Source of the DNA: an uncultured Myxococcales bacterium
Lineage (GTDB): Bacteria; Myxococcota_A; UBA9042; DTJE01
Direction: 5' to 3'
DNA length: 34,619 bases
NCBI GenBank assembly: GCA_903847405.1
Contig: CAINDP010000039.1
Coordinates: 1 to 34,619, forward strand
Each line of letters opens with the position of its first letter. Positions within the stretch are counted from its first letter, which is position 1. Below are positions 7,137-34,435 of the stretch, in pieces. Below the pieces are notes generated by a model, which did no database searches, was not told the DNA's origin, and saw only the letters and a program-made list of their open reading frames with translations. The translations under genes were made by a program, and so were the position numbers.

Positions 7137-7220
7137 GATTCCCTCCCCGTTCAGGACCGAAAAAGTGTCGTACGCAACCATTGTCGGGAATGGCGAGACA
7201 GGAATCAATCCCGAACCATT

Positions 7221-14024: not shown

Positions 14025-14114
14025 CCCCCCCGAAGCATGTCGTCCTCCATTGCCGGAAAACGCCGCCCGGTTGACTCTGCCCTCCCCGGGCCCCATCCTG
14101 CCTGCAACGCCCCC

Positions 14115-14120
14115 GGGAGG
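14115..14120 (+). promoter_or_regulatory. ribosome binding site supporting a TTG start for GH9
   Basis: GGGAGG stands six bases before an in-frame TTG at 14127. The ATG at 14037 has only a weak upstream site. Starting at the TTG gives a compact, conventional signal peptide. Confidence 0.55.
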
Positions 14121-14126
14121 AACCGG

Positions 14127-16814
14127 TTGCATCGACCCCATCGCACCGCAATTTCCGCGCGCCTTGCCGTCCTCCTGGTGCTGTCGGGGCTGGTCCCGGC
14201 CCTGGCGCCCTGCGCAGGCGCCGCGCCGCGCAAGGGCCCGGCAACCTTCGACCCGACCTTGCGAATCGAACGGTCGGCGTCCCTGGACGTCCCCCCGCCC
14301 GGGGCCTGGGACATGCGCATGGTCTCGCCGACGGTCATCGAAATCGACTGGATCAACAGCGCCCCGAAGGGCGGCAATCCCCTGACGTGGGACTTCGTGA
14401 AGGGGAACCAGGCGATCCTTCCGCCGCCGTCCGCCTTCGAAGTGCGCGCCGGCGGCGCGATCGTGGCCGTCCAGGCGGTCGGGTTCCGGCGCCGCCCGAC
14501 CTTCGCCCCGAAGTCCCGTCGGGATCTGCGAATCGGCAACGCCCTGTACCTGCGCCTGGCTTCGCCCGTGCCCGAAAACGCCGAGGTGCGGGTCCGCAAC
14601 CCGTCCGCCGACATCTGGACCGGCGCCGACGCCCTCGTGGCCCGGATGGATCCCCTGCGCTGGTCCGCCGCTATCCACGTGGCCCACGTCGGGTACGCGG
14701 TGGGTTCGGCCAAGCGCGCCGCGGTCGGAACGTGGATGGGCTCCCTCGGCGAACTGCCCGTCGGGGAAGGGACGCCGTTCCGGATCGTCGATGCGGGGAC
14801 GGGCCAGGTCGCCTTCAGCGGGCGACTGGTGCACACGACCGAGGACGGGTTCGAAAACGAGATCCTGCCGAACCAGCAGATCCGGGAGGCCGACTTCACG
14901 CAACTGGACCGCCCCGGTTCCTATCGACTGGTGGTACCCGGGCTGGGCGCGTCGGCCCAGTTCCGGATCGATCCGGGGCTGCCCGCCCTGCTGGCCCGGA
15001 CGCTGGCGCTGGGCCTGCTCCACCAGCGCTGCGGATTCGCCCTGGACCTGCCGTTCACGCGGTTCGTCCACAAGACCTGCCACATGGCGCCCGCGATGGT
15101 TCCCGCGCCCGACGACGCACGGTTCAACGATCGGCTTTCCGGCCTCCAGGAAGGGAAGTCCCGGGAGGACCAGGCGGCGCCGCTGCTGGATTCCGTGCGA
15201 AACGCCCTGTTCCCGTATTCGCGCCCCGGACCGGTGGACGTCCACGGCGGGCACCACGACGCGGGCGACTACGGAAAGTACGTGACGAACAGCGCCGCGC
15301 TGGTCCATGCCCTGGTGCTGGCCGTGGACGCCTTCCCCGGGGTCGCCGACCTGGACAACCTGGGCCTGCCCGAAAGCGGGGACGGAAGGCCCGACATCCT
15401 GCAGATCGCGACGTGGGAGGCGGATTTCCTGGCCCGGATGCAGGACGACGACGGCGGCTTCTATTTCCTGGTGCATCCGCAGAACCGCCCCTACGAGGAC
15501 GACGTGATGCCCGATCGCGGCGACCCCCAGGTCGTCCTGCCGAAGAACACCTCGGCGACCGCAGCGGCCGTGGCTGCCCTGGCCCAGGCAGGCTCGTCGC
15601 CCCGGATGCGCAGCGACTTCCCGACCCAGGCGGCCGACTACCTCGCCCGCGCCCTGAAGGGCTGGGGATTCCTGGAAGCCGCGTGGGGCCGGCACGGGCG
15701 AAAGGCGTCGTACCAGCGCGTCACCCACTACGGGGACCAGTTCGAGGATTCCGACGAAATCGCCTGGGCCGCCATGGAACTGTGGCTGGCGACGGGCCAG
15801 GAACGTTTCGCCGAGGAGGCCCGGAGGGGCTTCGACCCGCTGGACCATCGCCGGACCCGCCGGTGGGAGTGGGTGCCGCTGACCGAGGGCTACGGAAACG
15901 CCACCCGGTCCTGCGCCCTGGCGCCCCGGACGGGCCATCCCTTCGCGGCCCGGCTGGACAAGGACCTCCAGCAACGGTGCCGGAAGGAACTGGACGCGGT
16001 CGGCGACGAACTGGCGTCGTGGGCCCTGGCCTCCGCATACCGGACGTCGTTCCCGACGGAAAACAAGCGGTTCCGGACGGCCGCGTGGTACTTCAGCCCC
16101 GAAAACGCCTTCGATCTGGAGGTGGCCGGGGTCGGCCGCAACCGCCCGGACCTGCAGGCCGTGGCGGCGTCGAACTTCGACTACGCCCTGGGCGCGAACC
16201 CCGTGGACGTGTCCTTCGTCGCCGGGCTGGGCCGGAACCGTCCGCGCAACATCGTCAGCCAGTTCGCCCTGAACGACCACCGCGCCCTTCCCCCGACAGG
16301 CCTCCTGGTGGGCGACGTCACGGCGGGCCCGGCGTGGACTCCCGAATACCAGCACGACCTTTCCCGCCTGGCCTTCCCGCCCGACGGGGACAAGGAAACG
16401 CGCGCTCCGTACCCGATGTACGACCGGTGGACCGACGCCTGGAACGTCCAGACCGAGGCGACGGTCGTGCCCCAGGGCCGGGCGCTGGCCGCGGCGGCGG
16501 CATGGATGGCCCGGACGCCCCTGAAGAACCAGGCCTGGCGCTCCGTGGCGGCCACCATCGTCCTGCCGGAAACCCGGGTCCGGGCCGATTCCCCCGTCCA
16601 CCCGCGCCTGAAGGTGGACGGCATGGACCTGGCGACCGCCCAGATCGCCTGGGAGGCCTCGGGGCTGGAACCGGACGACGGGCCGAACCCGGTGTTCGTG
16701 TTCCCGCGCGCAGGCGCCCACTGGCTGGAAGCCGAGGCGACCTGGCCGGACGGCCGCAGGGCATTCGCCCACCTGGACGTGACCGTGGACGCTGCCCCCC
16801 AGAGGCAACCATGA
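14127..16814 (+). CDS. secreted glycoside hydrolase family 9 (endoglucanase-type) protein
   Basis: An 895-residue exported enzyme if translated from the TTG at 14127 (GGGAGG six bases upstream); an ATG at 14037 would add 30 residues before the signal peptide. The signal has a hydrophobic core about residues 12-26 and a likely cleavage after AGA. An N-terminal Ig-like CelD_N domain follows, ending with the characteristic adFTQLDRPGSYRLVV segment. The (alpha/alpha)6 GH9 catalytic domain contains DAGD (Asp378, Asp381), PESGDGRPDIL, NFDYALGANP and a late Glu777 in QTEATV that fits the proton donor. The last ~90 residues form another Ig-like domain. GH9 enzymes cut beta-1,4-glucans, and a few members act on glucosamine polymers. 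In this operon it would process the locus polysaccharide in the periplasm or outside. Its stop overlaps the next start (ATGA). Confidence 0.9.
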   Translation: MHRPHRTAISARLAVLLVLSGLVPALAPCAGAAPRKGPATFDPTLRIERSASLDVPPPGAWDMRMVSPTVIEIDWINSAPKGGNPLTWDFVKGNQAILPPPSAFEVRAGGAIVAVQAVGFRRRPTFAPKSRRDLRIGNALYLRLASPVPENAEVRVRNPSADIWTGADALVARMDPLRWSAAIHVAHVGYAVGSAKRAAVGTWMGSLGELPVGEGTPFRIVDAGTGQVAFSGRLVHTTEDGFENEILPNQQIREADFTQLDRPGSYRLVVPGLGASAQFRIDPGLPALLARTLALGLLHQRCGFALDLPFTRFVHKTCHMAPAMVPAPDDARFNDRLSGLQEGKSREDQAAPLLDSVRNALFPYSRPGPVDVHGGHHDAGDYGKYVTNSAALVHALVLAVDAFPGVADLDNLGLPESGDGRPDILQIATWEADFLARMQDDDGGFYFLVHPQNRPYEDDVMPDRGDPQVVLPKNTSATAAAVAALAQAGSSPRMRSDFPTQAADYLARALKGWGFLEAAWGRHGRKASYQRVTHYGDQFEDSDEIAWAAMELWLATGQERFAEEARRGFDPLDHRRTRRWEWVPLTEGYGNATRSCALAPRTGHPFAARLDKDLQQRCRKELDAVGDELASWALASAYRTSFPTENKRFRTAAWYFSPENAFDLEVAGVGRNRPDLQAVAASNFDYALGANPVDVSFVAGLGRNRPRNIVSQFALNDHRALPPTGLLVGDVTAGPAWTPEYQHDLSRLAFPPDGDKETRAPYPMYDRWTDAWNVQTEATVVPQGRALAAAAAWMARTPLKNQAWRSVAATIVLPETRVRADSPVHPRLKVDGMDLATAQIAWEASGLEPDDGPNPVFVFPRAGAHWLEAEATWPDGRRAFAHLDVTVDAAPQRQP

Positions 16815-17480: not shown

Positions 17481-19013
17481 TCACCGCCTGACGAGGATCC
17501 GCCGCACGACGGCCCGGTCCTGCGGGGTCATCCCCAGGACCACGAACAGGCCCGCGAACACCAGGCAGCCCGCCGCCGCCTCGGCCAGCACCGCGGCGAG
17601 GTTCGGGGGCGGCAGGATCGCCTTCAGCCCCATCATCGCGGCCCAGGCGCCCAGGGCAGGCAGCAGCGACGGGACGAACACGCCCCGCACGTACTCGACG
17701 GCCCCGATGCCGAACGCATGCCGGACCAGGGCCACCACCACGCAGACGTCCACCAGCGCCGTCGCCGTCAGCGTGCCCAGCGCCACGCCCGGCAGGCCGA
17801 TCCACCACACCAGCAGCAGGCTGGCGCCCAGGTTCACGGTCATGCTCAGGAACGCCGCCCAGGCGGTCAGGCGATGGTGCCCGGTCATGCTGAACACGCC
17901 CGAGGCGACCATCTGGGGCACCAGCAACGCCACCGAGGTCATCAGGATCGTCATCACCACGGCCGCCTCGCCGTAGTCCGGCCCGACCCAGGCCGAAAGC
18001 GCCTCGCGTCCCAGGGCCAGCGACGCCACCGCCATCCCCGCGGCCGGCGCCAGCGCGAACCGGGCGCCGGTGATCAGCAGGGCACGAACGTCGTCCTTCC
18101 GCCCCGCACCGCTCATTTCGGCCGCCAGCGGCCCCAGGACGTTGACCCCCTGCTTGATCAGCATCAGGGCGTTTTCGGCGACCTTCAGCGCCACCCCGTA
18201 CAGGGCCACCGCCGTCAGCGGCAGGAAGGCGTTCACGATGATCGGATCGGTCCGCAGCAGCACCAGCGACGATACGGTCACCACGAACTGCGCCGCACTG
18301 ATCCACACCGCCGACCCCAGCAGGGTCCGGTCGAAGCGCCGCACGGATATCCGCAGGTCCGGCGTCGTCGCAAACGCCGCGACGACATACACGACATGCT
18401 CGACCGCGAAGGCCGCCAGGTTCGCCCACGCCAGCCCGATCAGGCCTCCCCCCATCTCCAGGGCGGCAACGGACGACACGGCATACAGCAGGGTCCCGCC
18501 GGCCTGCAACAGGTTCACCAGGCCGATCCGCCCGTTGCCGAACAGGATCGAACGGAACATCCCGAACGGCAGGCTGACCGCGATCGACCGCGCCGCCAGG
18601 ACCCACAGCAACGGCAGGGCCGCGTCCCGCTGGGTTTCGGGAATCCCGAACAGGTCCGCGTAGACCGGCGTCATCCCGGCGACGATCGCGGCGGCCAGCA
18701 GCGCCAGGCCCAGGTACACCGCCATCATCGTGCTCAGCATCCGGTTGCGGCGATCGACCGCCTCCAGGCCCCCGCGCGCATGGACGGCCCCCCGGGCCTC
18801 CGCCGTGAACCGGATTACCGTGGTCGTGAACCCGAAATCCACCAGGGACAGGAAACCCAGGACCGAAAACGTCAGCGTCCACAGGCCGAACCCGGCATCG
18901 CCCAGGTGCCCGATCATGTAGGGGACCAGGGCCAGTTGGACCACGATGACGACGCCGTATCGCAGGTACGACGTCAAGGTGTCGGTGGCCACGCGTCGCG
19001 CGTGTCCGCTCAT
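17481..19013 (-). CDS. Wzx-type oligosaccharide flippase (MOP superfamily)
   Basis: A 510-residue polytopic membrane protein with an estimated 12-14 hydrophobic segments. The N-terminus (TLTSYLRYGVVIVVQLALVP) and the early pattern LGDAGFGLWTL...LVDFGFTTTVIRF are typical of polysaccharide flippases, which move undecaprenyl-diphosphate-linked repeat units from the cytoplasmic to the periplasmic face. Charged residues such as Arg/Asp within helices fit a substrate-dependent translocation path. The ATG at 19013 overlaps the stop of the polymerase gene in an ATGA, so the two are likely translationally coupled. It is the last gene of the phosphodiesterase-polymerase-flippase operon. Pairing with a Wzy-type protein supports a Wzx/Wzy pathway. 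Confidence in the family is high; the transported unit is unknown. Confidence 0.9.
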   Translation of the reverse strand: MSGHARRVATDTLTSYLRYGVVIVVQLALVPYMIGHLGDAGFGLWTLTFSVLGFLSLVDFGFTTTVIRFTAEARGAVHARGGLEAVDRRNRMLSTMMAVYLGLALLAAAIVAGMTPVYADLFGIPETQRDAALPLLWVLAARSIAVSLPFGMFRSILFGNGRIGLVNLLQAGGTLLYAVSSVAALEMGGGLIGLAWANLAAFAVEHVVYVVAAFATTPDLRISVRRFDRTLLGSAVWISAAQFVVTVSSLVLLRTDPIIVNAFLPLTAVALYGVALKVAENALMLIKQGVNVLGPLAAEMSGAGRKDDVRALLITGARFALAPAAGMAVASLALGREALSAWVGPDYGEAAVVMTILMTSVALLVPQMVASGVFSMTGHHRLTAWAAFLSMTVNLGASLLLVWWIGLPGVALGTLTATALVDVCVVVALVRHAFGIGAVEYVRGVFVPSLLPALGAWAAMMGLKAILPPPNLAAVLAEAAAGCLVFAGLFVVLGMTPQDRAVVRRILVRR

Positions 19014-20509
19014 GTCAGGCCCCCTTCCCGCGCCCAGACGGGCGGTTCATCCCGGATCGGAACCCATTCGCCCGTGATCTGCGGCTGGCGTCCGGGCGTC
19101 CCGGGTGCCGTCGGTGCTCCGCCCGGGGGCGTCGTCGGTCCGCCGTCTTCCGTCCCCTTCGTGCCGTCCGGCGGCACGTCGATCGTCCGCCGGGCCTTCC
19201 GCGCGGCAACGGCGGCCACCCGCGACACCTCTGCCAGGCCCACGGACAGCCCCGCACAGAACAGGAACATGTAGAAGATCGGCGTGATCCGGAAGACCCA
19301 CTCCAGGAACCCGGACAGGTGCAGGACCAGCATGCCCAGGGCGATGGACGCCTGGACCAGCCCGTCGAACCCCCTCTGCCGGAACGCCTGGAACGACGCA
19401 TGCCACAGGAACCGCAGCAGCACCATCGCGAACACGACCAGCCCGATCCAGCCCATCTCGGCGGCGGTCAGGAAGTACACCTCGTGGCACACCCCCTTCT
19501 GCTTTTCCGCGGCCATGATCTTGATCATGCTGTTGTATTTCGGGGTGTTGGTCAGCACGTACGAAAACTGGTTGACGCCCACGCCCAGCGGATTGTCCGT
19601 CGCCATGGCCGCCGCGGCGCGATTGAACTCCTCGCGCGCCATGTGGGAGGACTCGGGCGCCTCCAGGAACCGTTCGACGATGCTGCGACCGGTGATCAGC
19701 CCCCCCAGCCCCAGGGCGCCGACCACGACCAGCGACGCGACCGTGACACGGATCGACTTCGTCTTCCGGTTCGCGACCAGCAGGACCCCCAGGATCGCGA
19801 ACAGCGAAAGGACCATGCCCGCCCGGCTGAACGTCATGACCACGGTCAGCAGCATCGCCATGACGGCTCCCAGGCTGACCAGCGACGCCGACGTCGACAG
19901 CCAGCGCGAGGCCAGGCCCATGGCCAGCAGGATCGGAAGCACCTGGTTCAGGAACAGGGGCACCGTGTTGGAGTGATCGAAGGTCGCCGGGATCCGGTAC
20001 AGGCCCTGCCCGTACTTCTGGTACATCGCGTACAGCGCAAACAGGATGCCGATGGCCAGGATCCCGCGCCACACCGACTTGATCGGGACCCCGACCCGCA
20101 GGACGTTGACGACCGTCCAGTACAGGACGAACCCGCGCAGCATCTTCCAGATCGTGAACGACGCCAGCAGTCCCTGGGGCGCGTCGATGATCGACAGCAC
20201 CGCCACCCCGAAGTACAGCACCATCAACCCGGTGTTGTAGGGGATCCAGGAAATCCGGCCGGGCTTGCGCGCGATCACCGCCAGGGCCAGCGACCACGTG
20301 ATCAGGTCGGCCAGCGTGACCTCGAAGCCCCGGTCGGGCCCCCGGTAGGTTTCGATCGACAGGAGGTGCATGTTGCCGTGATCGCCCAGGCCGGTCGCGA
20401 AGATCAGCGCGGAAAACAGGTATCCCCGCAGTTTTTCGGACCGCCAGGCCAGGAACGTCATCATGGGCACGGCGAAGATCATCAGCAGGGCGAAGACCGC
20501 GTACTTCAT
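19010..20509 (-). CDS. O-antigen ligase/Wzy-type polysaccharide polymerase
   Basis: A 499-residue multi-spanning inner-membrane protein. The ATG at 20509 follows GGAGGGGCGGC. It has the Wzy_C/O-antigen ligase pattern: many hydrophobic helices, then a large periplasmic loop with NPLGVGVNQF near residue 305 and CHEVYFLTAAEMGWIGL near 340. The His followed by an E-L-type helix is the usual active-site region, with HE where HN is commoner. The family joins undecaprenyl-linked oligosaccharides into polymers or ligates them to an acceptor; with an adjacent Wzx and a Wzz-like protein nearby, polymerase is the more likely role. Residues about 436-499 form a hydrophilic Pro/Gly/Thr-rich tail that is not part of the family fold and is probably cytoplasmic. 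Its stop overlaps the flippase start. Confidence 0.88.
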   Translation of the reverse strand: MKYAVFALLMIFAVPMMTFLAWRSEKLRGYLFSALIFATGLGDHGNMHLLSIETYRGPDRGFEVTLADLITWSLALAVIARKPGRISWIPYNTGLMVLYFGVAVLSIIDAPQGLLASFTIWKMLRGFVLYWTVVNVLRVGVPIKSVWRGILAIGILFALYAMYQKYGQGLYRIPATFDHSNTVPLFLNQVLPILLAMGLASRWLSTSASLVSLGAVMAMLLTVVMTFSRAGMVLSLFAILGVLLVANRKTKSIRVTVASLVVVGALGLGGLITGRSIVERFLEAPESSHMAREEFNRAAAAMATDNPLGVGVNQFSYVLTNTPKYNSMIKIMAAEKQKGVCHEVYFLTAAEMGWIGLVVFAMVLLRFLWHASFQAFRQRGFDGLVQASIALGMLVLHLSGFLEWVFRITPIFYMFLFCAGLSVGLAEVSRVAAVAARKARRTIDVPPDGTKGTEDGGPTTPPGGAPTAPGTPGRQPQITGEWVPIRDEPPVWAREGGLT

Positions 20510-20546: not shown

Positions 20547-21698
20547 TCACAGTCCCAGTTCCGACAGAACGACCCTCTTCAGATCCGCCAGGCCGGAGGG
20601 CCGCGGCGCATCGCGCGTGTTCGAGCCGTAGAAGGCGACCGAATCCTTGTCGTCGGGCGCATAGCCGTGCATGCCGGGAATGGACCGCAGACCCATGTGC
20701 GACGGCACGATCAGCACCCCGGGATCGGCCAGCCAGAACCGGTCCCCGTACCGGTGGCCCGGGAAGTCCACGCCCCAGGCATGCAGCGTGTCGTCGTCCA
20801 CCATGTGCCCCCGGGGCTCCTCGGCCATGGTCGCCTCGATGCGCTCCCGGGCGCCGTCCCGGAGGTACCAGAACCGCGCCGTCGTCGAATCGTACACGGC
20901 GGCATAGTCGACCCCGAAGCGCAGGCCGGTCCGCTCCACCCGCGCCATCACGTCGCAGGTGTCCTTCACGTCGGTCATGCCGTGGTCGGAAAACACGTGG
21001 ATCCGGACGTCGTCGTACCGTTCGTGGGCGATGGCCAGGATCCGGCGAATCCGTTCCTCGTACCAGCGCAGCCGATCGACGACCGCCGCCGACTTCGTGC
21101 CGTTGGCGTGCAGGACGGCGTCCAGCGACGCCAGGAACAGCCAACCCATCGCGATCCGTCCCTCGCCGACGTCCCGTTCCAGGCGCGCCAGGTTTTCGAC
21201 CTCCGGCCGGCGCCAGTCCGACAGCGAGAAGGGGATGCCCCGCTCGCGCAGCGGGTCGAACACGGTCTTCTGCCCGCCCAGGATCCCCCCGGGGAAGTAG
21301 ATGTCCTTCTTTTCGATGTAGTCCATCAGCGGCAGGACGTTCCAGGGCACGTTGTACAACTGGAAGTACCCGTTCCAGCCCAGCGCCCGACCCACCCCCT
21401 TGCTGATCCACGACCGCACGCGCCCCCGGTCCACGACCGACGAGGGCAGCACTCCCATCAGGCGCAGGGCGCGAAACGGCGAATGCGGCGGGTCGTACAC
21501 GAAAAAGCTGAAATGGCCGTGCTCCCGGGGCGTCACCCCGGTCAGGATGGTGGGGTCGCACGTCGAGGAATACCCGAAAACGGTTCCCAGCGGCGCCTTG
21601 TGCGTCAGCACATCGTCCAGGAAGGGGATCCGCTGGGCCAGTTCCCACCCGAACGCATCCACGAACACGGACAGCACCAGACGTCCCGAGCGCGCCAT
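20547..21698 (-). CDS. type I phosphodiesterase/nucleotide pyrophosphatase (alkaline phosphatase superfamily)
   Basis: A 383-residue protein; the ATG follows GGGGGGCAGGA. Motifs of the two-metal alkaline phosphatase fold are visible: SVFVDAFGW with Asp14 at the N-terminus, YSSTCDPTILTG with a likely nucleophilic Thr or Ser at 45-46, FSDHGMTD near residue 237, and GMHGY near 340. Together they fit the nucleotide pyrophosphatase/phosphodiesterase subgroup. There is no signal peptide or membrane helix, so it would act in the cytoplasm, which is uncommon for a phosphodiesterase in a polysaccharide operon. It is the first gene of the operon containing the polymerase and flippase, 37 bases before the polymerase. 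It may hydrolyse a nucleotide sugar or a phosphoryl-linked intermediate, but the sequence does not show which. Confidence 0.87.
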   Translation of the reverse strand: MARSGRLVLSVFVDAFGWELAQRIPFLDDVLTHKAPLGTVFGYSSTCDPTILTGVTPREHGHFSFFVYDPPHSPFRALRLMGVLPSSVVDRGRVRSWISKGVGRALGWNGYFQLYNVPWNVLPLMDYIEKKDIYFPGGILGGQKTVFDPLRERGIPFSLSDWRRPEVENLARLERDVGEGRIAMGWLFLASLDAVLHANGTKSAAVVDRLRWYEERIRRILAIAHERYDDVRIHVFSDHGMTDVKDTCDVMARVERTGLRFGVDYAAVYDSTTARFWYLRDGARERIEATMAEEPRGHMVDDDTLHAWGVDFPGHRYGDRFWLADPGVLIVPSHMGLRSIPGMHGYAPDDKDSVAFYGSNTRDAPRPSGLADLKRVVLSELGL

Positions 21699-21724: not shown

Positions 21725-21756
21725 TTGACGCGCACGGATGCGATGCGCAACGATAG
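21725..21756 (+). promoter_or_regulatory. divergent intergenic region with possible promoter
   Basis: The 96-base gap between the phosphodiesterase start (21698, minus) and the deacetylase-GT2 start (21795, plus) must carry the signals for both operons. On the plus strand TTGACG (21725-21730) is a good -35, and AACGAT at 21749 is a weak -10 after 18 bases. On the minus strand TATCGT (21756-21751) could be a -10, but no good -35 was found. Confidence 0.25.
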
Positions 21757-21794
21757 CACACCCGTCCTCCGAGGGACCTGTTCCGGGAGACACG

Positions 21795-23510
21795 ATGCCC
21801 GACGCACCTGTGCCGGACCCGACGCTCGACGTCCCGACCGGGCTCCCCGCCCCCCGGCGCCACCTGCTGACCGTCGTGGTGGAGGACTATTTCCAGCACT
21901 CCGCCTTCAGCAACCTGATCCAGCCGGACCGCTGGCGGCGCTTCGAGGCCCGGGTGGGCACGAACACCCGGCGGGCGCTGGCGCTGCTGGACGAATACGA
22001 CATCAAGGCGACCTTCTTCACGGGGGGCTGGATCGCCGAAAAGATGCCCGACATCCTGGCCGAGGTCGCCGGCCGCGGGCACGAAGTGGCCAGCAAGGGC
22101 TTCTATCACCGCCCGCTGCGGGAAATGTCCCACCGCGAGTTCCGGGACGACCTCCGGCGCTCCCGCGTGGCCATCGAGCGCGCCTCGGGGGTCCGCTGCT
22201 GGGGCCATCGCGTCGCCCAGGGCACCTTCACGCCGGAGGACCTCTGGGCCCTCGACGTGCTGGCTGAGGAGGGCTTCGCCTACGACTCGTCCTTCTTCCC
22301 GCGCCTGGCCGACATCCGCAAGGAGCCCTGGCGGCGCTACCCGCACCTGCACCACCACGCCGGGCACGACCTCTGGGAGGTGCCGTTGTCCAGCGTGGGG
22401 CCCGCGTGGATGTCCATCCCGGCCGCGGGGGGCAACTACTTCCGCCAGATGCCCCCGGGCCTGATGCGCATGGTGGTCGAATCCTGGGACCGGGCGCTGG
22501 ACGCTCCGTTCAATCTGTATTTCCACGTCTGGGAACTGGACCCGGAAATGCCGCGCATCGATGCCGTGAACCGCCTGACGCGGGTCCGGCAGTACCGCAA
22601 CCTGGACAAGATGGAGGGCATCCTCCGGGACTACTTCGCGCGCTACCGGTTCGGCAGCATCGCGGCGCACCTGGGCCTGGACCCGGCCGCACCGGCTGCG
22701 ACGCGCGCCGCCGAGGATGTCCTTCCGGCCGGCGCACGGGCCTCCAAGCGTCGCAAGGCGTCGCTCCCGCCTTCGGACGAGCCGCCCGTGCCCATCACGA
22801 TCGTCATCCCGCTGTTCAACGAGGAGGAGGCCCTCCCCTACCTGCGCAACACCCTCGACGAAGCGATGCTGGACTTCTACCGGCGCTACGACGTGAAGTT
22901 CGTGTTCGTCGACGACGGCAGCACCGATTCCACCTGGAACGTCTTGCGGACCATGTTCGGCCAGCGGACCAACTGCGCCTTCGTGCAGCAACCGAAGAAC
23001 AGCGGCGTGGCGGCGGCGATCCTGGCCGGCATCCGGGCCGCCACCACCGAGGTGGTCTGCTCGATCGACTGCGACTGCACCTACGATCCGCGGCAGTTGC
23101 TGGAAATGATCCCCATGATGACCGACGGCGTGGACATGGTGACGGCGTCGCCGTACCACCCGCAGGGACAGGTCATGAACGTGCCCGAGTGGCGTCTGGC
23201 CCTGTCGAAGGGCCTGTCCTTCCTGTACCGCCGCCTGCTCCACAACCACCTCGCGACCTACACGGCGTGCTTCCGGGTGTATCGTCGCTCGGCGGTGGAG
23301 CAGGTCGAAGTGACCGAGGGCGGCTATCTGGGCGTGGTGGAAATGCTGGCCCGGATGGATCTGGCGGGTTCGCGCATCGTGGAGGCGCCCGCCGTGCTGG
23401 AGGTCCGCATGATGGGCCAGTCCAAGATGAAGGTGGTCCGGACGATCCGCGGACACCTGGGCCTCCTGGCCCGCATGACCGCGACTCGATTCCGGGGGAA
23501 GGTCACGTGA
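21795..23510 (+). CDS. polysaccharide deacetylase (DUF3473-like) fused to GT2 glycosyltransferase
   Basis: A 571-residue protein; the ATG follows GGGAGA. Residues about 15-300 match the NodB/DUF3473 deacetylases of exopolysaccharide loci (VEDYFQHSAF, ATFFTGGW, then WALDVLAEEGFAYDSS and the late YFHVWELDP). Three motif positions differ: the usual DVEDY is VVEDY (Glu30-Asp31 kept), the metal-ligand motif SHGxxH is SKGFYH (Lys101 for the first His, His105 kept), and the usual GYRAP is GHRVA. Residues about 332-571 form a family 2 glycosyltransferase: VIPLFNEEEA, FVDDGSTDST and a DxD-like SIDCDCTYD, resembling polyprenyl-phosphate glycosyltransferases but without C-terminal membrane helices. The protein has no signal peptide. 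The gene starts operon 2, and its stop overlaps the next start (GTGA). Domain calls are firm; deacetylase activity is doubtful. Confidence 0.9.
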   Translation: MPDAPVPDPTLDVPTGLPAPRRHLLTVVVEDYFQHSAFSNLIQPDRWRRFEARVGTNTRRALALLDEYDIKATFFTGGWIAEKMPDILAEVAGRGHEVASKGFYHRPLREMSHREFRDDLRRSRVAIERASGVRCWGHRVAQGTFTPEDLWALDVLAEEGFAYDSSFFPRLADIRKEPWRRYPHLHHHAGHDLWEVPLSSVGPAWMSIPAAGGNYFRQMPPGLMRMVVESWDRALDAPFNLYFHVWELDPEMPRIDAVNRLTRVRQYRNLDKMEGILRDYFARYRFGSIAAHLGLDPAAPAATRAAEDVLPAGARASKRRKASLPPSDEPPVPITIVIPLFNEEEALPYLRNTLDEAMLDFYRRYDVKFVFVDDGSTDSTWNVLRTMFGQRTNCAFVQQPKNSGVAAAILAGIRAATTEVVCSIDCDCTYDPRQLLEMIPMMTDGVDMVTASPYHPQGQVMNVPEWRLALSKGLSFLYRRLLHNHLATYTACFRVYRRSAVEQVEVTEGGYLGVVEMLARMDLAGSRIVEAPAVLEVRMMGQSKMKVVRTIRGHLGLLARMTATRFRGKVT

Positions 23511-24940
23511 CGACGAAAGGCACACGAACGAAAGCGGCTGCGAAACCGGCCCGTGCCGCGGCAGGCGGCGATGCCGGCAACGGCCTGCACCGGGTCCCCG
23601 GTCCGCCGCGTTGGGCCGTGGTCGGCGGCGGGATGCTGGGCCTGACCCTCGCCCACCGCCTGGCGGGACAGGGCAAGGACGTCACGATCATCGAGGCCGC
23701 CCCGCACCTGGGCGGCCTGGCATCCGCCTGGACGATCGACGGTATCACCTGGGACCGGCACTATCACGTCATCCTGGCCTCGGACGGGCACCTGCGGCGC
23801 GTCCTCGCGGAAATCGGCCTGGACGGCGACATGCAGTGGGCGACCACCCGCACCGGCGTCCTGGCCGACGGCCGCCTGATGTCCCTGTCCAACACCATCG
23901 AGATGGCGACCTTCCCGGTGCTGAACCTCGTGGACAAGGCGCGCCTGGCCGCCACGATCCTGCATGCCTCGCGCATCGAGGACGGCCGCCCCCTGGAATC
24001 GATCCCCGTCGCCGACTGGCTGACGCGCTGGTCGGGCCGCCGCGCCTTCCAGCGCTTCTGGCTGCCGCTCCTGCGCAGCAAGCTGGGCGACAACTACCGG
24101 CAGACGTCGGCGGCGTTCATCTGGGCCACGATCCGGCGCCTGTACGCCGCCCGGCGCAGCGGCCTCAAGGAGGAGCGTTTCGGGTACGTCGCCGGCGGCT
24201 ATGCCCGCGTGCTGGAGCGGTTCGCTTCGACCCTGGCCGCGGAGGGCGTCCACCTGTCCCTGGGCCGTCCCGTCGCGCGGATCTTCGCCGACGCCGGCAC
24301 CCCGACCGTCCAGTTCGCCGACGGCGCGCGCGAAACGTTCGACCGCGTCGTCGTCACCGCAGCGGCGCCCCTGGCCGCCCGCCTGTGCGACGGCCTGTCG
24401 CCCGACGAACAGGCGCGCCTGGCGGGCGTCAAATACCAGGGCATCGTCTGCCCCTCCGTGCTGCTGAAACGCCCCCTGGGGGGCTTCTACGTCACGAACC
24501 TGCTGGATCCGGCGCCCTTCACCGGCGTCATCGAAATGTCCGCCCTGGTGGACCGCGACCGCTTCCTCGGCGGGCGCCATCTCGTGTACCTGCCGCGGTA
24601 CGTGGCCAGCGACGATCCGTTCCTCAAGGTCCCGGACGACCAGATCCGCGCGACCTTCCTCGAGGCCCTCTTCCGTATGTTCCCGGATCTGCGCGCCGAC
24701 GACGTGCTGGCCTTCAAGGTCAGCCGCGTTCCGTACGTCATGGCGCTGCCGACCCTGCACTACTCGGATCGCCTTCCGTCGGTCCGCACGTCGATCCCGG
24801 GCGTCTACACCCTGAACTCGGCCCACATCGTGAACGGCACCCTCAACGTCAACGAAACCGTCCAACTGGCCGAGCGCGGCGCCCGTGCCTTCCAGGGCGA
24901 ATGGGTCGGCACGGACCTGCCTCCGCTGGACGGACCATGA
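23507..24940 (+). CDS. FAD-dependent oxidoreductase (protoporphyrinogen oxidase/amine oxidase-like)
   Basis: A 477-residue flavoprotein. It starts at a GTG overlapping the previous stop in GTGA, with GGGGGAAGG upstream. After about 35 Lys/Ala-rich residues comes the FAD-binding fold: VVGGGMLGLTLAHRL, then the IIEAAPHLGGLAS segment. A C-terminal NETVQLAERGARAF helix ends the FAD-binding domain. The fold groups with NAD(P)-binding Rossmann/amine-oxidase-type and HemY-like proteins that are often found next to glycosyltransferases and deacetylases in exopolysaccharide loci. No membrane helix is evident. The reaction is unknown; oxidation of a lipid-linked sugar, or a mutase-like role as in UDP-galactopyranose mutase, are both possible. 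A deacetylase gene follows after seven bases. Confidence 0.85.
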   Translation: MTTKGTRTKAAAKPARAAAGGDAGNGLHRVPGPPRWAVVGGGMLGLTLAHRLAGQGKDVTIIEAAPHLGGLASAWTIDGITWDRHYHVILASDGHLRRVLAEIGLDGDMQWATTRTGVLADGRLMSLSNTIEMATFPVLNLVDKARLAATILHASRIEDGRPLESIPVADWLTRWSGRRAFQRFWLPLLRSKLGDNYRQTSAAFIWATIRRLYAARRSGLKEERFGYVAGGYARVLERFASTLAAEGVHLSLGRPVARIFADAGTPTVQFADGARETFDRVVVTAAAPLAARLCDGLSPDEQARLAGVKYQGIVCPSVLLKRPLGGFYVTNLLDPAPFTGVIEMSALVDRDRFLGGRHLVYLPRYVASDDPFLKVPDDQIRATFLEALFRMFPDLRADDVLAFKVSRVPYVMALPTLHYSDRLPSVRTSIPGVYTLNSAHIVNGTLNVNETVQLAERGARAFQGEWVGTDLPPLDGP

Positions 24941-24947
24941 GGTGACC

Positions 24948-25937
24948 ATGAAACCGATCGCCAGCCTTTCCCTGGACCTCGACAACCTCTGGTCCTACAT
25001 GAAGGTCCACAACGACCCCGGGTGGGACACCTTCCCGTCCTACCTCGATCTGGTGGTCCCGCGCGTGCTGGACTTCCTGGAGTCCCGACGCCACGCCATC
25101 ACGTTCTTCATCGTCGGGCAGGATGCCGCGATCGACCGCAACCGCGAGGCGCTGGCGCGCATCGGCAGTTCGCGCCACGAGGTGGGCAACCACTCCTTCG
25201 CCCACGAACCCTGGCTGCACCGGTACACGCGGGCCCAGGTGGACGACGAAATCGCCCGGGCCGAGGACGCCATCGTCGCCGCGACCGGCCGTCGGCCCAC
25301 CGGCTTCCGGGGCCCGGGCTTCAGCGTGTCCACGACCGTCCTGGAGGTCCTGGCCGCCCGGGGGTACCGCTTCGACGCCTCGACCCTCCCGACGTTCATC
25401 GGGCCCCTGGCCCGTGCCTACTACTTCATGACCGCGCGCCTGGGCTCCCAGGAACGCGAGGAGCGCGGCGCCCTGTTCGGAACGGTCCGCGACGGCCTGC
25501 GTCCGGTGACCCCGTACCGGTGGAACCTGCCCTCCGGCGCCTCCATCGTCGAGATCCCCGTCACGGTCTTCCCGGTGGCCCGCGTGCCCTTCCACCTGTC
25601 GTACGTCCTGTACCTTTCGACGTTCTCGGAAACCGCCGCGCGCCTGTACTTCCGCACGGCCCTGGACGCGTGCCGCCGCACCGGCGTCGAGCCCTCGATC
25701 CTCCTGCACCCCCTCGACTTCCTGGGCGGCGACGACGTGAAGGAACTGGCCTTCTTCCCCGCCATGAACCTCCCTGCGAAGGTGAAACTGGAACGGGTCT
25801 CCCAGTACCTCGGGGACCTCGCGGAGCGCTTCGAGATCCTGCCCATGGGCACCCACGCCCGGGCGCTGGAGGGCCGAGCGGACCTTCCCGTCCGTGACCC
25901 GGACTTCGCCGAAATGCCCGCTGCCGCGGCGCCGTGA
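24948..25937 (+). CDS. polysaccharide deacetylase (NodB family), stand-alone
   Basis: A 329-residue protein; the ATG at 24948 follows GAGGTGACC. The NodB metal site is complete: LSLDLDN at the N-terminus (Asp10, Asp12) and GNHSFAH with His82 and His86, followed by TGFRGPGFS in the GxRxP position. A late ILLHPLDF contains the conserved histidine of motif 5. It would remove N- or O-acetyl groups from a sugar intermediate or polymer. There is no signal peptide, so it is predicted to be cytoplasmic, acting on lipid-linked precursor. It differs clearly from the two deacetylase domains fused to glycosyltransferases in this window. It sits between the FAD oxidoreductase (seven-base gap) and the polytopic membrane protein (seven-base gap), so all are very probably one operon. 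Confidence 0.9.
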   Translation: MKPIASLSLDLDNLWSYMKVHNDPGWDTFPSYLDLVVPRVLDFLESRRHAITFFIVGQDAAIDRNREALARIGSSRHEVGNHSFAHEPWLHRYTRAQVDDEIARAEDAIVAATGRRPTGFRGPGFSVSTTVLEVLAARGYRFDASTLPTFIGPLARAYYFMTARLGSQEREERGALFGTVRDGLRPVTPYRWNLPSGASIVEIPVTVFPVARVPFHLSYVLYLSTFSETAARLYFRTALDACRRTGVEPSILLHPLDFLGGDDVKELAFFPAMNLPAKVKLERVSQYLGDLAERFEILPMGTHARALEGRADLPVRDPDFAEMPAAAAP

Positions 25938-25944
25938 GGCGTTC

Positions 25945-27456
25945 ATGAACGAACTGGCCCGTCGTCTGACCGCCTCCATGCCCCTGCACGTCGCCGCCCT
26001 GATGGTGGTGACGTTCTTCGCCTGGGGCACGCCGGTGCCGACCGGGAACGAGGAGCACTACCTCGTGGTCCTGCGCGGCATGTGGGACCCGTCCTTCCTG
26101 CCGAACGACTGGACCTTTTCGACCTCCCTCCCCGACCGCTGGACCTTCGACGCCCTCTTCGGGGCCCTGGCCCTCGTCGTGCCCGTGGAGGCCATCGCCT
26201 GGGGCGGTCGCCTGGTCTGCTGGGCCCTGTCCCTCTGGGCCATCCTGCGCATCGGGCGACGGATGTCGGTCCCCCTGCCCCTGGCCGCCGTCGCCACGGC
26301 CCTGTGGATCCTGCTGGACCAGTCCCTGGTGGGCGGGGAATGGATGATCGGCTGGTTCGAAGCCAAGGCCGTGGCCTGGGTGTTCCTGCTGCACGCCATC
26401 GACGCGGCGATGGCCGGGCGATGGACCCGCGCCGCCGCCTTCGCGGGTCTGTCGGCGACCTTCCACCCGGCGGTGGGCGTGGTCGGCGGCGCGTCCCTGG
26501 CCCTGGCGGTCCTGGCGGTGCATCGGCCGTTGCGCGACCTCTGGAAGCCCGCCCTTGTCGGGGTGGCCTGCGGGCTGCCCGGGGTGATCCAGGCCGGCCT
26601 CATGACGATCGGCAGCGAACCGTCCACCGTCGACGACTGGCGCTTCCTGTCCACGTCGTTCCTGCGGATCCACATGGACGCCTCGACCTTCGACGTGGGC
26701 CTGATGGCGGCCCTGGTCCTGACCATCGCCTTCACCGTCACGTGGGCGCACCGCATGCGGGCACGGCCCGAATTCCGGATCCTGGCCTGGCTGCACGTGA
26801 TTCCGGCCGTCCTGTTCGCGGTCGGACTGCTGGCCCATGCGACCGGAGCCTGGAACCTGATGGCCCTGACGCCCTATCGACTCCTCCCGGCGATCAGCCT
26901 GCTGGCGTTCTGCCTGGCGGGGGCGTCGGCGCTCGCAGAGGCCTCGGTCGGCGCCACGGGAAGGGTCGCACCCCTCCTGGCCGCGGGCGCACTCCTGTGT
27001 CTTCCGGCCCTCCCCTCCCTGATCAAGGCCGAGGGCGCCCGACTTGCCAACGCATGGAATCCCCAGCCGGATTCCTACGAACTGGCCTTCGAGTGGATCG
27101 CTACGAGCATCCCCGATGGGGAAATCGGACTCGTGCCCCCGTGGAGGGGAGACGCGACCCTCCGCTCCCGTCACGGCCAGGTGGTCCACTGCGCAATGCC
27201 TCGATATGACAAACTTTCCGAGTGGCATCGCCGGATCGCAGACCTCCTCGGGGACGTGACCACCGCCGATTCCAGGGACCTTGGCCTGTCGTGGATCCGG
27301 GCGAAGGAGGCCTGGAAAACCCTGTCGGAACCCGACGTTGCCCGCCTGGCCTCGGAGTACCGCGCCACCTACCTCGTGACCGAGGCCAACTACTCGTTCC
27401 CCCTGGCATTTATCGCCCGCGAAGTGAAGGTCTACCGCCTCGCCCCACCCCCTTGA
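25945..27456 (+). CDS. polytopic membrane protein, possible GT-C-type glycosyltransferase
   Basis: A 503-residue inner-membrane protein; the ATG follows GTGAGGCG. A short N-terminal tail precedes a first helix (about residues 14-30). A loop with GNEEHYL and DPSFLPNDWTFS follows, then about nine further hydrophobic helices to about residue 365. The last ~135 residues are soluble (YELAFEWIATSIPDGEIGLVPPW... to the end) and probably periplasmic. An acidic pair in the first extracytoplasmic loop, many helices and a C-terminal soluble domain are the layout of GT-C glycosyltransferases that use polyprenyl-phosphate sugars. It resembles membrane proteins annotated as DUF6798, but that is recalled, not computed. 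With the GT2 domain of the operon resembling polyprenyl-phosphate sugar synthases, a donor-acceptor pair is plausible. Function is not proven. Confidence 0.8.
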   Translation: MNELARRLTASMPLHVAALMVVTFFAWGTPVPTGNEEHYLVVLRGMWDPSFLPNDWTFSTSLPDRWTFDALFGALALVVPVEAIAWGGRLVCWALSLWAILRIGRRMSVPLPLAAVATALWILLDQSLVGGEWMIGWFEAKAVAWVFLLHAIDAAMAGRWTRAAAFAGLSATFHPAVGVVGGASLALAVLAVHRPLRDLWKPALVGVACGLPGVIQAGLMTIGSEPSTVDDWRFLSTSFLRIHMDASTFDVGLMAALVLTIAFTVTWAHRMRARPEFRILAWLHVIPAVLFAVGLLAHATGAWNLMALTPYRLLPAISLLAFCLAGASALAEASVGATGRVAPLLAAGALLCLPALPSLIKAEGARLANAWNPQPDSYELAFEWIATSIPDGEIGLVPPWRGDATLRSRHGQVVHCAMPRYDKLSEWHRRIADLLGDVTTADSRDLGLSWIRAKEAWKTLSEPDVARLASEYRATYLVTEANYSFPLAFIAREVKVYRLAPPP

Positions 27457-30780: not shown

Positions 30781-32514
30781 TCAGGGGTTCGGTCCGTCCC
30801 CGAAGGCGCAGTCCACGAGGGTCGAGCGAACGTCCTCGAAGCCCGGGAGGGGGTCCGGAGGCAGGGGATCCACGATCGCGCAACCGGTCGTGCAGGTGCC
30901 GGCGATGCGCTGGACGTCGGCGAACACGATCCGCTGGAAGTCCGTTTCGGCATACCGGGCGTTGTAGAAGTCCGCCAGATCGGCCACTTCCCGCGCGACG
31001 CCCCGCTCGACCGCCTGGAATCCCGCCACGACCTCGTCCACCAGGCCCTGGCCCGGCACCTTGCGCCCCCGGCCGATGCCCGTGTAGCCCACGCCGTGGG
31101 ATTCCACCGCCTGGCGCCCTGTCAGGTTGCACCCGTCCACGAACCCCTTCAGCGTCGGGGCGCCCGCCGCCAGGATCCCGGCCACGTCGTCGGCATAGAC
31201 CCGGTGGCCGGTGCAGGCGATGGCCACCTCGGCCCCCCGCATGGCCTTGGCCAGATCGGGCTGGAAGTGGGCATTCAGGTCCGTGCGCATCAGGTTCTGA
31301 TCCCCCAGGCGCACGTAGGGGTCCGTCAGCGTGACGTGCGCCCCCCGGCCCAGCAGCAGGCGCGCCAGGGTCAGGGTCGGCGAGTTCCGCGTGTCCTCGG
31401 AATCGAACCGGTAGGCCGTCCCCAGCAGCACGAACTTCCGGCCCTCGATGTCCCCGAAGGCCCGCTCGGCCAGGTGAAGCGTCGCCATCGGCGAGGCGTC
31501 GTTGATCTTCCGCGCCCGCAGGATCAGGCTGTTCCGACCGTCATGGCCCGCCTCCAGGCGCCGCCACCACAGGAGGATGCCGTCCTTGGGCAGGCAGTGG
31601 CCGCCGACGCCGACCGTGGGCACCAGCAGGCCGCCCGTGGGTACCGCCGTGGGGTTGGCGGACGCGCCGTCGGTCTGGGCCAGGCGCACGTTCACCGCGT
31701 CCCGCAGCGCGAAGAAGTCCACCTCGTGGTCGTCGCACCAGCGGACGACCTCGGCGGCGTAGGCGATCCGGACGTCGCGGTAGGCGTTTTCCAGGGTCTT
31801 GACCATTTCCCCGGTCAGGCTGTTCGTGGGCAGCAGGATCCCCTGCGTCACGATGCGCCCGTACAACCGGTGGATCAGTTCCGGCGTGGCCGGGTTCAGT
31901 CCCGCGACGATCTTGTCGGAATCGCGAACGCGCTCGACCAGGCGGCCGGGCATCACGCGGTTCGGACTGTTGCCCAACAGGATGTCCCGGCCGTCCACCA
32001 GGCCGTGCCGGGCGAACAGGTCCCGCACCAGGGTCGCCATGGAGGACGGCGCCAGCGTGGACTCGAACACCACCAGGGGGATGTTGCCGGCCGGGCGTTT
32101 CGCCAGCGCCGCCGCCAGGCCTTCCAGGGCGTCGAACAGCGGGCCGTAGTCGGGGCCGAACCCCTTCTTGTCCGTCTGGACGCACACCAGCACCACGTCC
32201 GCATCGGACAGCGTGGAAATGTCGTGGGACGCGTCCAGCAGGCCCGCCGCGACCGACTCGGCCACGACGCGGTCCAGGTCCGGCTCGACGCCGCCGATGG
32301 GCGACTTTCCCGCGTTGATGGAATCGACCTTCCAGCCGGAGGTCGGCGAGGCGCGCTGGATGACCGTCACCCGGGCGGGCGTGTCGCTGCCCTCGCAGAT
32401 CCGGGCGTTGGCCAGCATGGCGGCCATCGGCATCCCGACGATCCCGGGCCCGATCACGCCGATGCGACGAACCGACCAGCCCTCGGGCCGGCCATCGATC
32501 AAGGTCAGGGGCAT
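30781..32514 (-). CDS. nucleotide-sugar 6-dehydrogenase (UDP-HexNAc/UDP-glucose dehydrogenase family)
   Basis: A 577-residue protein; the ATG at 32514 follows a consensus AAGGAGG with a five-base spacer. The N-terminal NAD-binding loop GPGIVGMP is near residues 23-30. NSPNRVMPGRLV matches the conserved PERVxPG segment of UDP-HexNAc dehydrogenases such as WecC and WbpA. NSLTGEMVKTLENAYRDVRI contains the active-site lysine-asparagine helix. The catalytic cysteine is in GVGGHCLPKDG. A C-terminal nucleotide-sugar-binding domain follows (GTAYRFDSEDTRNSP, then TDPYV). The enzyme would oxidise C6 of a UDP-sugar to the uronic acid. About 100 residues after the normal end (from about 470) form an unusual extension with CTTGC and a Pro-rich patch. 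The gene lies 37 bases after the asparagine-synthase-type gene, suggesting linked functions. The exact sugar is uncertain. Confidence 0.92.
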   Translation of the reverse strand: MPLTLIDGRPEGWSVRRIGVIGPGIVGMPMAAMLANARICEGSDTPARVTVIQRASPTSGWKVDSINAGKSPIGGVEPDLDRVVAESVAAGLLDASHDISTLSDADVVLVCVQTDKKGFGPDYGPLFDALEGLAAALAKRPAGNIPLVVFESTLAPSSMATLVRDLFARHGLVDGRDILLGNSPNRVMPGRLVERVRDSDKIVAGLNPATPELIHRLYGRIVTQGILLPTNSLTGEMVKTLENAYRDVRIAYAAEVVRWCDDHEVDFFALRDAVNVRLAQTDGASANPTAVPTGGLLVPTVGVGGHCLPKDGILLWWRRLEAGHDGRNSLILRARKINDASPMATLHLAERAFGDIEGRKFVLLGTAYRFDSEDTRNSPTLTLARLLLGRGAHVTLTDPYVRLGDQNLMRTDLNAHFQPDLAKAMRGAEVAIACTGHRVYADDVAGILAAGAPTLKGFVDGCNLTGRQAVESHGVGYTGIGRGRKVPGQGLVDEVVAGFQAVERGVAREVADLADFYNARYAETDFQRIVFADVQRIAGTCTTGCAIVDPLPPDPLPGFEDVRSTLVDCAFGDGPNP

Positions 32515-32551
32515 GGTGTCCTCCTTGTGAATCGCGGCGAGTTCACGCCGC

Positions 32552-34435
32552 CTACGGTGCATCAATGAACGTTCGATACCACAGTTCCAGGTTCAGCAGG
32601 CCCCACAACCGCCGCCCGAAGGCGTGCTCGCGGTCCAGCAGGCCTTCCACGGCGGTCGTGTCGAACAGTCCGCGCTGGCGGCAACGGTCGGACAGCAGGA
32701 CGTCCGCGAACAGGTCCCGGGCCTTGTTCCTGGCCCACAGGTGCAGCGGCACCGGGAAGCCCATCTTTTCCTTGCGGGCCAGGATGCGCGCGGGAACGAT
32801 GTCGCCGATGGCCTTCTTCAGCACGTACTTCATTTCGGCCCCCTTGAACTTCATCGCGGGGGGCATGCAGGTCACCAGGTCCACCAGGCGGTGGTCCAGC
32901 AGCGGCACCCGGGACTCCAGCGAGTGGGCCATGCTGACCCGGTCCTCGACGTGGAGCAGGGCGGGCAGGCTGGACACCATGTCGAAATGCGTCATGCGGT
33001 TGAAGAAGGACTGCGTGTCCGGGTGGTTGAACACCGACTGGAACCGGGCGAACGTCCCTTCGTGATCGAACGCCGCCCGGAAGTCGTCGGTGAACAGGCT
33101 GACCATGCCGCCGCTGCGGTCCACCAGGCGGAAATACCGGCGGTCCTGGGGCTCGAAGGCGCCCTCGGACCAGAACTCCCGCAACATCGGCACGTACTGC
33201 TTCAGGTACGGCAGGTTCGGCAGGATCGACTTCAGCGACACGATGTGCTCGCCTTCCTCGTTGTTTTCGAAGATGGCGCCCTTGATGGCCTGCTCGAGGT
33301 AGGCCACGACATACCGCGCGTAGCCGCCGAAGATCTCGTCGCCGCCCTGCCCTCCCAGCGCCACCGTGACCTGCTTGCGCGCGAAGCCGGACACGATGTA
33401 CTGCGGGAACAGGCCGGGGCCCGCCGCCGGTTCGTCCATGTGCCAGGCCAGGTGCGGCATCAGGTCCACGAACTCCTGCTCGGTCGGGTGGATCACGAAG
33501 GACGTCGCCCCGCAGGCGTCGGCCGCGACGCGGGCGTACTCGGACTCGTCGAACTCCGGCCCCTCGGCGAAGGCGCCCGTGAAGGTCTTCAGCGGCTCGC
33601 CGGCATACCGCGCGGCCAGCATCGTCACCAGGGACGAATCGGTTCCCCCCGACAGGTAGGTCCCGACGGGCACGTCCGAGCGCATCTGCAGGCGCACCGA
33701 GTCGGCGATCGTTTCGCGGATCCGGTCCTTGAAGTACTCCTCGGTGTGGTACGTGTCGACCTGGAAGCGGGGCTCCCAGTACAGGGTATCGCGCACCGTC
33801 AGGTCGCCCAGGTCGATCGTGAGGTAGTGGCCCGGCCGGACCTTGACCACCCCGTCGAACATCGTGGCGTCGGACAGACAGAACTGGAACGTCAGGTAGT
33901 CGCGCACCGCGGCGGCGTCCGGCTGGGCGCGCACGTCCGGGTGGCGCAGCAACGCCTTGATTTCCGACGCGAACAGCAGCCGCTCGGGGGTCGCGTGCAG
34001 GTACAGCGGCTTGATGCCGAAGTGGTCCCGGGCCGCCACCGCGATGCCCCGCGCCCGATCCACCAGCAGGAAGGCGAACATCCCGTTCAGGCGCTCGACG
34101 AACGCGGGGCCGTGCTGCAGGTAGCCCTGCAGGATGACCTCGGTGTCGGACGCGGTCTGGAACTGGCACCCCAGGCTCTTCAGTTCCTCGCGCAGCTCGA
34201 CGTAGTTGTAGATTTCGCCGTTGAACGCGATGACGGCCGGACCGCTGTGCATGGGCTGGTGGCCGGTGGCCAGATCGATGACCGACAGGCGCAGGTGGTG
34301 CAGGCCGACAGGACCGTCGATCCACTGCCCCTCGTCGTCCGGACCGCGATGGCGAATCACGTCCGCCATGCGGGTCAGCACGTCCGACTCCACCCGGTTT
34401 CCGGGACGCTGGAACACACCGACCAGTCCGCACAT
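32552..34435 (-). CDS. glutamine-dependent asparagine synthase-type amidotransferase
   Basis: A 627-residue enzyme. Cys2 follows the initiator Met and is the glutaminase nucleophile after Met removal (MCGLVGVF). RHRGPDDEG and FNGEIYNY complete the N-terminal Ntn-hydrolase domain. The synthetase domain has the ATP pyrophosphatase loop LSGGTDSS and later GGQGGDEIFGGYARY. Length and motifs match AsnB. Homologues in polysaccharide loci amidate uronic-acid carboxyls of nucleotide sugars or repeat units instead of aspartate. Its position directly before a nucleotide-sugar dehydrogenase favours that role here, but sequence alone cannot separate the two. The ATG at 34435 is preceded by GGTGAG. A candidate promoter lies 33-60 bases upstream. 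Confidence 0.93.
   Translation of the reverse strand: MCGLVGVFQRPGNRVESDVLTRMADVIRHRGPDDEGQWIDGPVGLHHLRLSVIDLATGHQPMHSGPAVIAFNGEIYNYVELREELKSLGCQFQTASDTEVILQGYLQHGPAFVERLNGMFAFLLVDRARGIAVAARDHFGIKPLYLHATPERLLFASEIKALLRHPDVRAQPDAAAVRDYLTFQFCLSDATMFDGVVKVRPGHYLTIDLGDLTVRDTLYWEPRFQVDTYHTEEYFKDRIRETIADSVRLQMRSDVPVGTYLSGGTDSSLVTMLAARYAGEPLKTFTGAFAEGPEFDESEYARVAADACGATSFVIHPTEQEFVDLMPHLAWHMDEPAAGPGLFPQYIVSGFARKQVTVALGGQGGDEIFGGYARYVVAYLEQAIKGAIFENNEEGEHIVSLKSILPNLPYLKQYVPMLREFWSEGAFEPQDRRYFRLVDRSGGMVSLFTDDFRAAFDHEGTFARFQSVFNHPDTQSFFNRMTHFDMVSSLPALLHVEDRVSMAHSLESRVPLLDHRLVDLVTCMPPAMKFKGAEMKYVLKKAIGDIVPARILARKEKMGFPVPLHLWARNKARDLFADVLLSDRCRQRGLFDTTAVEGLLDREHAFGRRLWGLLNLELWYRTFIDAP

Follow-up and report, generated by a model that had tools for sequence, protein, structure and literature searches.

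In HpPgdA, a protein of the NodB fold, Asp12 and His247 hold a water molecule and Asp14, His86 and His90 bind the ion (PMC3084791). The same fold has been reused without a metal in the allantoinase PuuE, which PMC10967932 describes as non-metal-dependent and altered in the motifs MT1 and MT2. Damage to MT1 and MT2 is also described for the CE4 pseudoenzymes BA3943, Ba0150 (4M1B) and EcCDA (2VYO), which keep the NodB fold and which, as far as the partial descriptions go, are apparently not joined to a glycosyltransferase. Such NodB pseudoenzymes are known singly, and their roles are mostly unexplained. The deacetylase of the XrtA system (TIGR03006) combines the domains PF01522 and PF11959 (DUF3473), and in the Arn pathway ArnC moves N-formyl Ara4N to undecaprenyl phosphate, ArnD deformylates it and ArnT transfers the sugar (PMC12748117). 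No report on a DUF3473 deacetylase, an XrtA/exosortase deacetylase or a deacetylase-GT2 fusion was found in the literature searched, the scope of which took in little of the subscription literature.

Here we describe a gene in which a NodB/DUF3473-like half that has probably lost its catalytic function is joined to a glycosyltransferase of the GT2 type. It lies in the window, by which we mean the whole stretch of 34,619 nucleotides analysed (G+C about 69%), and is composed as follows:

21738..23510, + strand: fused NodB/DUF3473-like putative pseudo-deacetylase and GT2, open reading frame of 590 aa
21861..22673, + strand: NodB and DUF3473 half, residues 42-312 (Pfam; fold matches over residues 36-314 of the model)
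22788..23501, + strand: GT2 half, residues 351-588, without a predicted transmembrane segment

An alternative ATG start at 21795 corresponds to Met20 of this frame and gives a protein of 571 aa; the earlier note on this DNA used that start, so that its Lys101 is Lys120 in the 590-residue numbering. Pfam places Polysacc_deac_1 at residues 74-166, DUF3473 at 184-310 and Glycos_transf_2 at 354-522. The best NCBIfam model is TIGR03006 (XrtA system polysaccharide deacetylase), which is matched by all 14 fused proteins that we aligned, with 247.1 bits for the window protein, under the curated cut-off of 276.2. The domain pair is that of the XrtA deacetylase; unlike that enzyme, the window protein falls below the cut-off, has lost the base Asp and the first metal His and carries a fused GT2. 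Exosortase (PF09721) had no match in the window's genome (G000, 96.7% complete), and among the fused genomes it is absent from all 7 in the window's class and present in all 7 outside it; a link to XrtA is thus not general, since exosortase accompanies only half of the fused genomes. Simple membership of an XrtA system was ruled out by the TIGR03006 score and by the genome lacking exosortase.

Of the 52 genomes of the window's class, 7 have a full-length fused relative. Such relatives were also found in 7 of 188 genomes taken from the phylum (a set that overlaps the class set), in 5 of 79 in the order of G064, in 6 of 90 in the class of G179 and in 1 of 57 in the class of G138. Together these are 14 distinct genomes, the window's included, all of them aligned; every genome searched belongs to one phylum, and among these genomes no fused protein with intact deacetylase motifs was found. 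Identity to the window protein ranges from 89% down to 49%, and two close relatives met in the contig scan are uncultured Myxococcales metagenome-assembled genomes. In the plasmid and phage collections no record covered 80% of the query, and viral contigs gave none. For comparison, 31 unfused DUF3473-type homologues were aligned with the 14 fused proteins: 27 are loci from the genome searches that match in the deacetylase half, and annotated plasmid records supplied the other 4. This set leaves aside a weak match in the window's own genome (L007, 32% over residues 80-298), the matches for which no locus was given and all but 4 of the 238 plasmid records.

The earlier note had pointed to three motif differences in the NodB half (VVEDY, SKGFYH and GHRVA) and had read them as lost activity or altered chemistry. 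All three are present on the alignment with the unfused homologues, and the following codons mark the positions concerned, as assigned from that alignment:

21876..21878, + strand: Val47, in the place of the catalytic-base Asp of MT1
22095..22097, + strand: Lys120 (AAG; Lys101 of the earlier note), in the place of the first metal His of MT2
22107..22109, + strand: His124, the second metal His, retained
22209..22211, + strand: Arg158, the Arg of MT3, retained, with the following Ala-Pro replaced (here by Val-Ala)
22524..22526, + strand: His263, the His of MT5, retained, with the following Pro replaced by Val

In MT1 the window protein reads TVVVEDYF against xxVDVEDYF in the unfused homologues, all 31 of which have the base Asp. 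None of the 14 fused proteins has it; they carry Val (5), Ala (6), Gly (2) or Gln (1) instead. In MT2 it reads ASKGFYHR against xxHGxxH, that is, Lys120-x-x-x-His124; the first His is found in 31/31 unfused and 0/14 fused proteins, so that none of the fused orthologues has the normal His, and the second in 31/31 and 13/14. Lys120, the conservation of which had been proposed as a check, holds in 12 of the 14 and gives way to Gln in L014 and to Gly in L042. In MT3 (GHRVAQG against GYRAPSx) the Arg is kept in all 14 fused proteins, the Ala is replaced in all 14 and the Pro in 10, being retained in the other 4. MT5 adds a fourth active-site change, with the His retained in 14/14 and His-Pro turned into His-Val in 13/14. 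With regard to the CE4/NodB features, then, the window protein lacks the base Asp of MT1, has a broken His-x-x-x-His pair and keeps the MT3 Arg and the MT5 His. A separate observation concerns L074 (G250), the one fused protein with Arg in place of the second metal His: both metal His are absent there (SKGYRRR), and its genome is also the only fused one without a match to the second deacetylase described below.

From Asp12 and Asp14 of HpPgdA, and from the D-x-D of that second deacetylase, DEAC2, which lies in the same alignment columns, the Asp47 equivalent can be taken as the base and the Glu49 equivalent as the metal acid; by this comparison, the Asp lost from VVEDY would have been the catalytic base and not the metal acid. 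In the profile alignment to 3rxz, the column of Lys120 falls on a His, and MT1 lies outside the aligned part. We also scanned residues 40-316, where 44 columns are conserved in at least 90% of the unfused set. Only D47, H120 and A159 are replaced in 14/14 fused proteins (P264 in 13/14), and all three universally replaced columns sit in active-site motifs. On this alignment, the active-site replacements in the fused proteins far exceed chance. The absence of the base Asp and the first metal His from every fused protein supports the proposal of lost activity or altered chemistry, and the loss of normal metal-dependent deacetylation from the fused NodB half appears well supported. Sequencing error or a one-off change was ruled out, since 14 fused proteins, taken from different assemblies, show the same losses.

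The fused proteins have also gained residues of their own. N233, Q237, W250, F262 and R287 are specific to the fused clade and fixed in 14/14, and the H-x-x-Y-G-x-P loop of the unfused family has become a W-R-R-F/Y-P-H-x-H loop (residues 198-205), in which H205 is found in 12/14 and H203 in exactly those 12 fused proteins that have Lys120, being absent from the other 2. It might be argued that this His-rich loop, standing where the canonical loop is gone, supplies new ligands for a re-sited metal and that the domain still binds metal and deacetylates, and the exact tracking of Lys120 by H203 speaks for such an account. However, the base Asp is lost as well in all 14, L014 has neither loop His, H203 is also His in 7 of the 31 unfused rows within a loosely aligned stretch, and the co-occurrence of H203 and Lys120 rests on two deep branches, which means one or two events. 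We consider a re-sited metal very unlikely.

The predicted fold bears on a second alternative. The model of the fused protein is of moderate quality (pLDDT 75.7, pTM 0.53), and the relative placement of the two halves is not fixed by it. The best match to the predicted N-terminal half is 3rxz (Z 23.2 over 239 residues, rmsd 3.2), a NodB barrel, followed by HpPgdA (3qbu, Z 22.6), PuuE (3cl6, Z 20.9), ArnD (Z 19.2) and the pseudoenzyme BA3943 (Z 18). With PuuE among the closest folds, with E49, D50, R158 and H263 invariant in 14/14 fused proteins and with the new clade-specific residues N233, Q237, W250 and R287 equally fixed, the NodB half could still be an enzyme in which Lys120, His124, Arg158 and His263 carry out another hydrolysis or an elimination without a metal. 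A catalytic Lys should be invariant, yet L014 has Gln and L042 has Gly at this position, and L074 has Arg in place of His124. The motif losses of PuuE differ from those of the fused protein, and its context is unrelated. We know of no metal-free NodB enzyme of this kind in such a setting, and altered metal-free chemistry seems to us unlikely.

In a tree of the NodB half, the 14 fused proteins form one clade (support 100/100), which persists when the motif columns are removed (100/99). L042, which has Gly at position 120, is the deepest fused branch in the drawn tree; the Asp and the His may therefore have been lost before Lys120 became fixed. L042 (G138) sits in an open frame of 1782 aa. Estimates of dN/dS for five pairs, by NG86 only and with dS near 1 in some of the pairs, gave 0.08-0.18 for NodB, 0.09-0.18 for DUF3473, 0.05-0.29 for GT2 and 0.27-1.0 for the linker. 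The two halves are thus held by purifying selection of about equal strength, which indicates that the NodB domain is maintained and is not debris; by these estimates, the NodB half is a maintained pseudoenzyme. A decaying domain was ruled out by its low dN/dS. It is conceivable that the protein was once bifunctional and that its deacetylase half, made redundant by DEAC2, is now a structural spacer, given that the adjoining DEAC2 could supply the activity and that the GT2 half stands alone elsewhere (L046, see below). Against such a vestige speak the purifying selection, equal in the NodB and GT2 halves and relaxed in the linker, and the pocket residues, which stay invariant in all 14 proteins although overall identity to the window protein falls to 49%; we regard it as highly improbable.

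It had also been claimed that the GT2 half keeps DDGS and a DxD-like motif. Both are there, as VDDGS and DCDCTYD, and the Asp residues D392, D393, D444 and D446 are invariant in 14/14, as are S395, R557, G560, S562 and K563, so that the half has DDxS, DxD and a C-terminal R-x-x-G-x-S-K. By sequence, the closest solved structure is the dolichyl-phosphate mannose synthase (DPMS) 5mlz, then ArnC, with GtrB lower; the fold matches of the modelled C-terminal half are 5mlz (Z 24.8), GtrB (Z 22.3) and ArnC (Z 21.6). In sequence and predicted fold, therefore, the GT2 half looks like the polyprenyl-phosphate sugar synthases DPMS, GtrB and ArnC, and 5mlz and GtrB share the three motifs. GtrB and ArnC bear C-terminal transmembrane helices. 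The chains of 5mlz and GtrB run beyond the aligned part, whereas in the window protein no transmembrane segment rises over the hydropathy threshold in the 590 residues and a pseudo-NodB domain is added at the N-terminus. An unfused relative of the GT2 half, of 269 aa and about 42% identical to it, is found in G112 (L046, positions 1471-2280). The gene after it is presumably a UDP-GlcNAc 2-epimerase.

The genes around the fusion are as follows:

17481..19013, - strand: Wzx-like flippase
19010..20509, - strand: O-antigen ligase/polymerase-like protein (Wzy_C)
20547..21698, - strand: divergent phosphodiesterase/nucleotide-pyrophosphatase-type protein (PF01663), a conserved neighbour in the window's family
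23507..24940, + strand: FAD-dependent amine-oxidase-like protein (PRK07233 type), overlapping the end of the fusion
24948..25937, + strand: DEAC2, a separate NodB deacetylase with the intact motifs LDLD, NHSFAH, FRGPGF and LHPLD
25945..27456, + strand: MEM, a polytopic membrane protein with a predicted GT-C-like fold (model pLDDT 68)
30781..32565, - strand: nucleotide-sugar 6-dehydrogenase
32552..34435, - strand: AsnB-type amidotransferase

The FAD gene is near the fusion and on the same strand in 11 of the 14 loci (window counted), and the three loci without it are near contig ends. DEAC2, two genes downstream of the fusion in the window, was found in 13 of the 14 fused genomes; there was no match in G250, where the fusion sits at a contig end. 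In 12/14 loci (window counted) the two genes are linked and run on one strand; the copy in G026 is on a separate contig. The N-H-S-x-x-H motif is present in 13/13 DEAC2 proteins and the D-x-D in the 12 whose match reaches it, the match in L100 starting at residue 41. Within the window's class, DEAC2 occurs in 7 of the 52 genomes, the same 7 that bear the fusion, an overlap for which the chance is 7e-9 if relatedness is ignored and 6e-4 within the window's family alone. DEAC2 is co-inherited and mostly co-located with the fusion. MEM is linked to the fusion in 6/14 loci, and its weak model is GT-C-like: no Foldseek match fell below E 0.001, the best 16 rows are all GT-C enzymes (E 1.2e-3 and worse), and almost every VIA row is a GT-C enzyme or a complex that contains one, ArnT included, with Z up to 14.1.

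In several parts the set may be compared with the Arn pathway: one half of the fusion is close in predicted fold to ArnC and the other to ArnD, DEAC2 is a co-inherited NodB protein whose motifs are intact, and MEM is a possible GT-C enzyme. Unlike ArnC and ArnD, both folds are here in one chain, the ArnD-like half appears dead and the GT2 has no predicted transmembrane segments. What sets the protein apart from the CE4 pseudoenzymes, as far as these are described, is the fusion of the dead domain to a GT2, its occurrence as one clade across several families and the intact deacetylase gene that accompanies it. That a dead domain is retained beside a normal deacetylase gene suggests reuse for holding or steering a substrate. 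The earlier note had suggested that the fold may now bind sugar and so present the GT2 domain with its acceptor. Such reuse is plausible, since the purifying selection and the invariance of E49, D50, R158 and H263 indicate that the pocket is preserved. However, the acceptor of a polyprenyl-phosphate sugar synthase, which the GT2 resembles, would be a lipid phosphate, and the acceptor may thus be the wrong partner; the pocket could equally well meet the sugar donor, the lipid-linked product or the live deacetylase encoded nearby.

We think it probable that the fused protein is a cytoplasmic polyprenyl-phosphate sugar synthase with a pseudoenzyme NodB domain, working in a lipid-linked-sugar module like that of ArnC, ArnD and ArnT, in which a separate protein acts as the live deacylase and the fused NodB domain has a binding or regulatory role without catalysis. 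The GT2 half would load an N-acylated sugar onto polyprenyl phosphate, and the dead NodB pocket (E49, D50, Lys120, R158, N233 and H263) would hold the sugar or the lipid-linked sugar unhydrolysed and thereby tether or gate the GT2. Deacylation by DEAC2 would follow, in the manner of ArnD acting after ArnC, and the product might go to the GT-C-like MEM in the role of ArnT. The simplest account, we infer, is that the dead NodB domain binds without cutting, in the service either of the GT2 or of the hand-over to DEAC2. More tentatively, the pocket may have been rebuilt on Lys120, the ammonium group of which would replace the metal ion, into a metal-free sugar site that takes up the GT2 product, a polyprenyl-phosphate N-acyl sugar, and passes it to DEAC2, so that one NodB domain recognises and the other cuts; this we offer as a possibility, if not a likely one.

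What is new against the Arn pathway is that the GT2 carries a second, dead NodB domain. A dead deacetylase that is fused to an active-looking GT2, fixed in a clade and co-inherited with a deacetylase with intact motifs allows a definite role to be tested with simple mutants. In automatic annotation such a gene would probably be labelled a deacetylase or a bifunctional enzyme, which is likely to be wrong for the first half. Elsewhere in the window, a WecG/TagA-type transferase is fused to another NodB domain (12363-14021, +), the motifs of which (VTFDDG and GSHGMTH) are apparently intact. A glycoside hydrolase family 9 protein lies amid the polysaccharide genes (14037-16814, +) and also adjoins the locus in G001 and G002, and an alpha-2-macroglobulin family protein is encoded at 2310-7208 on the - strand.
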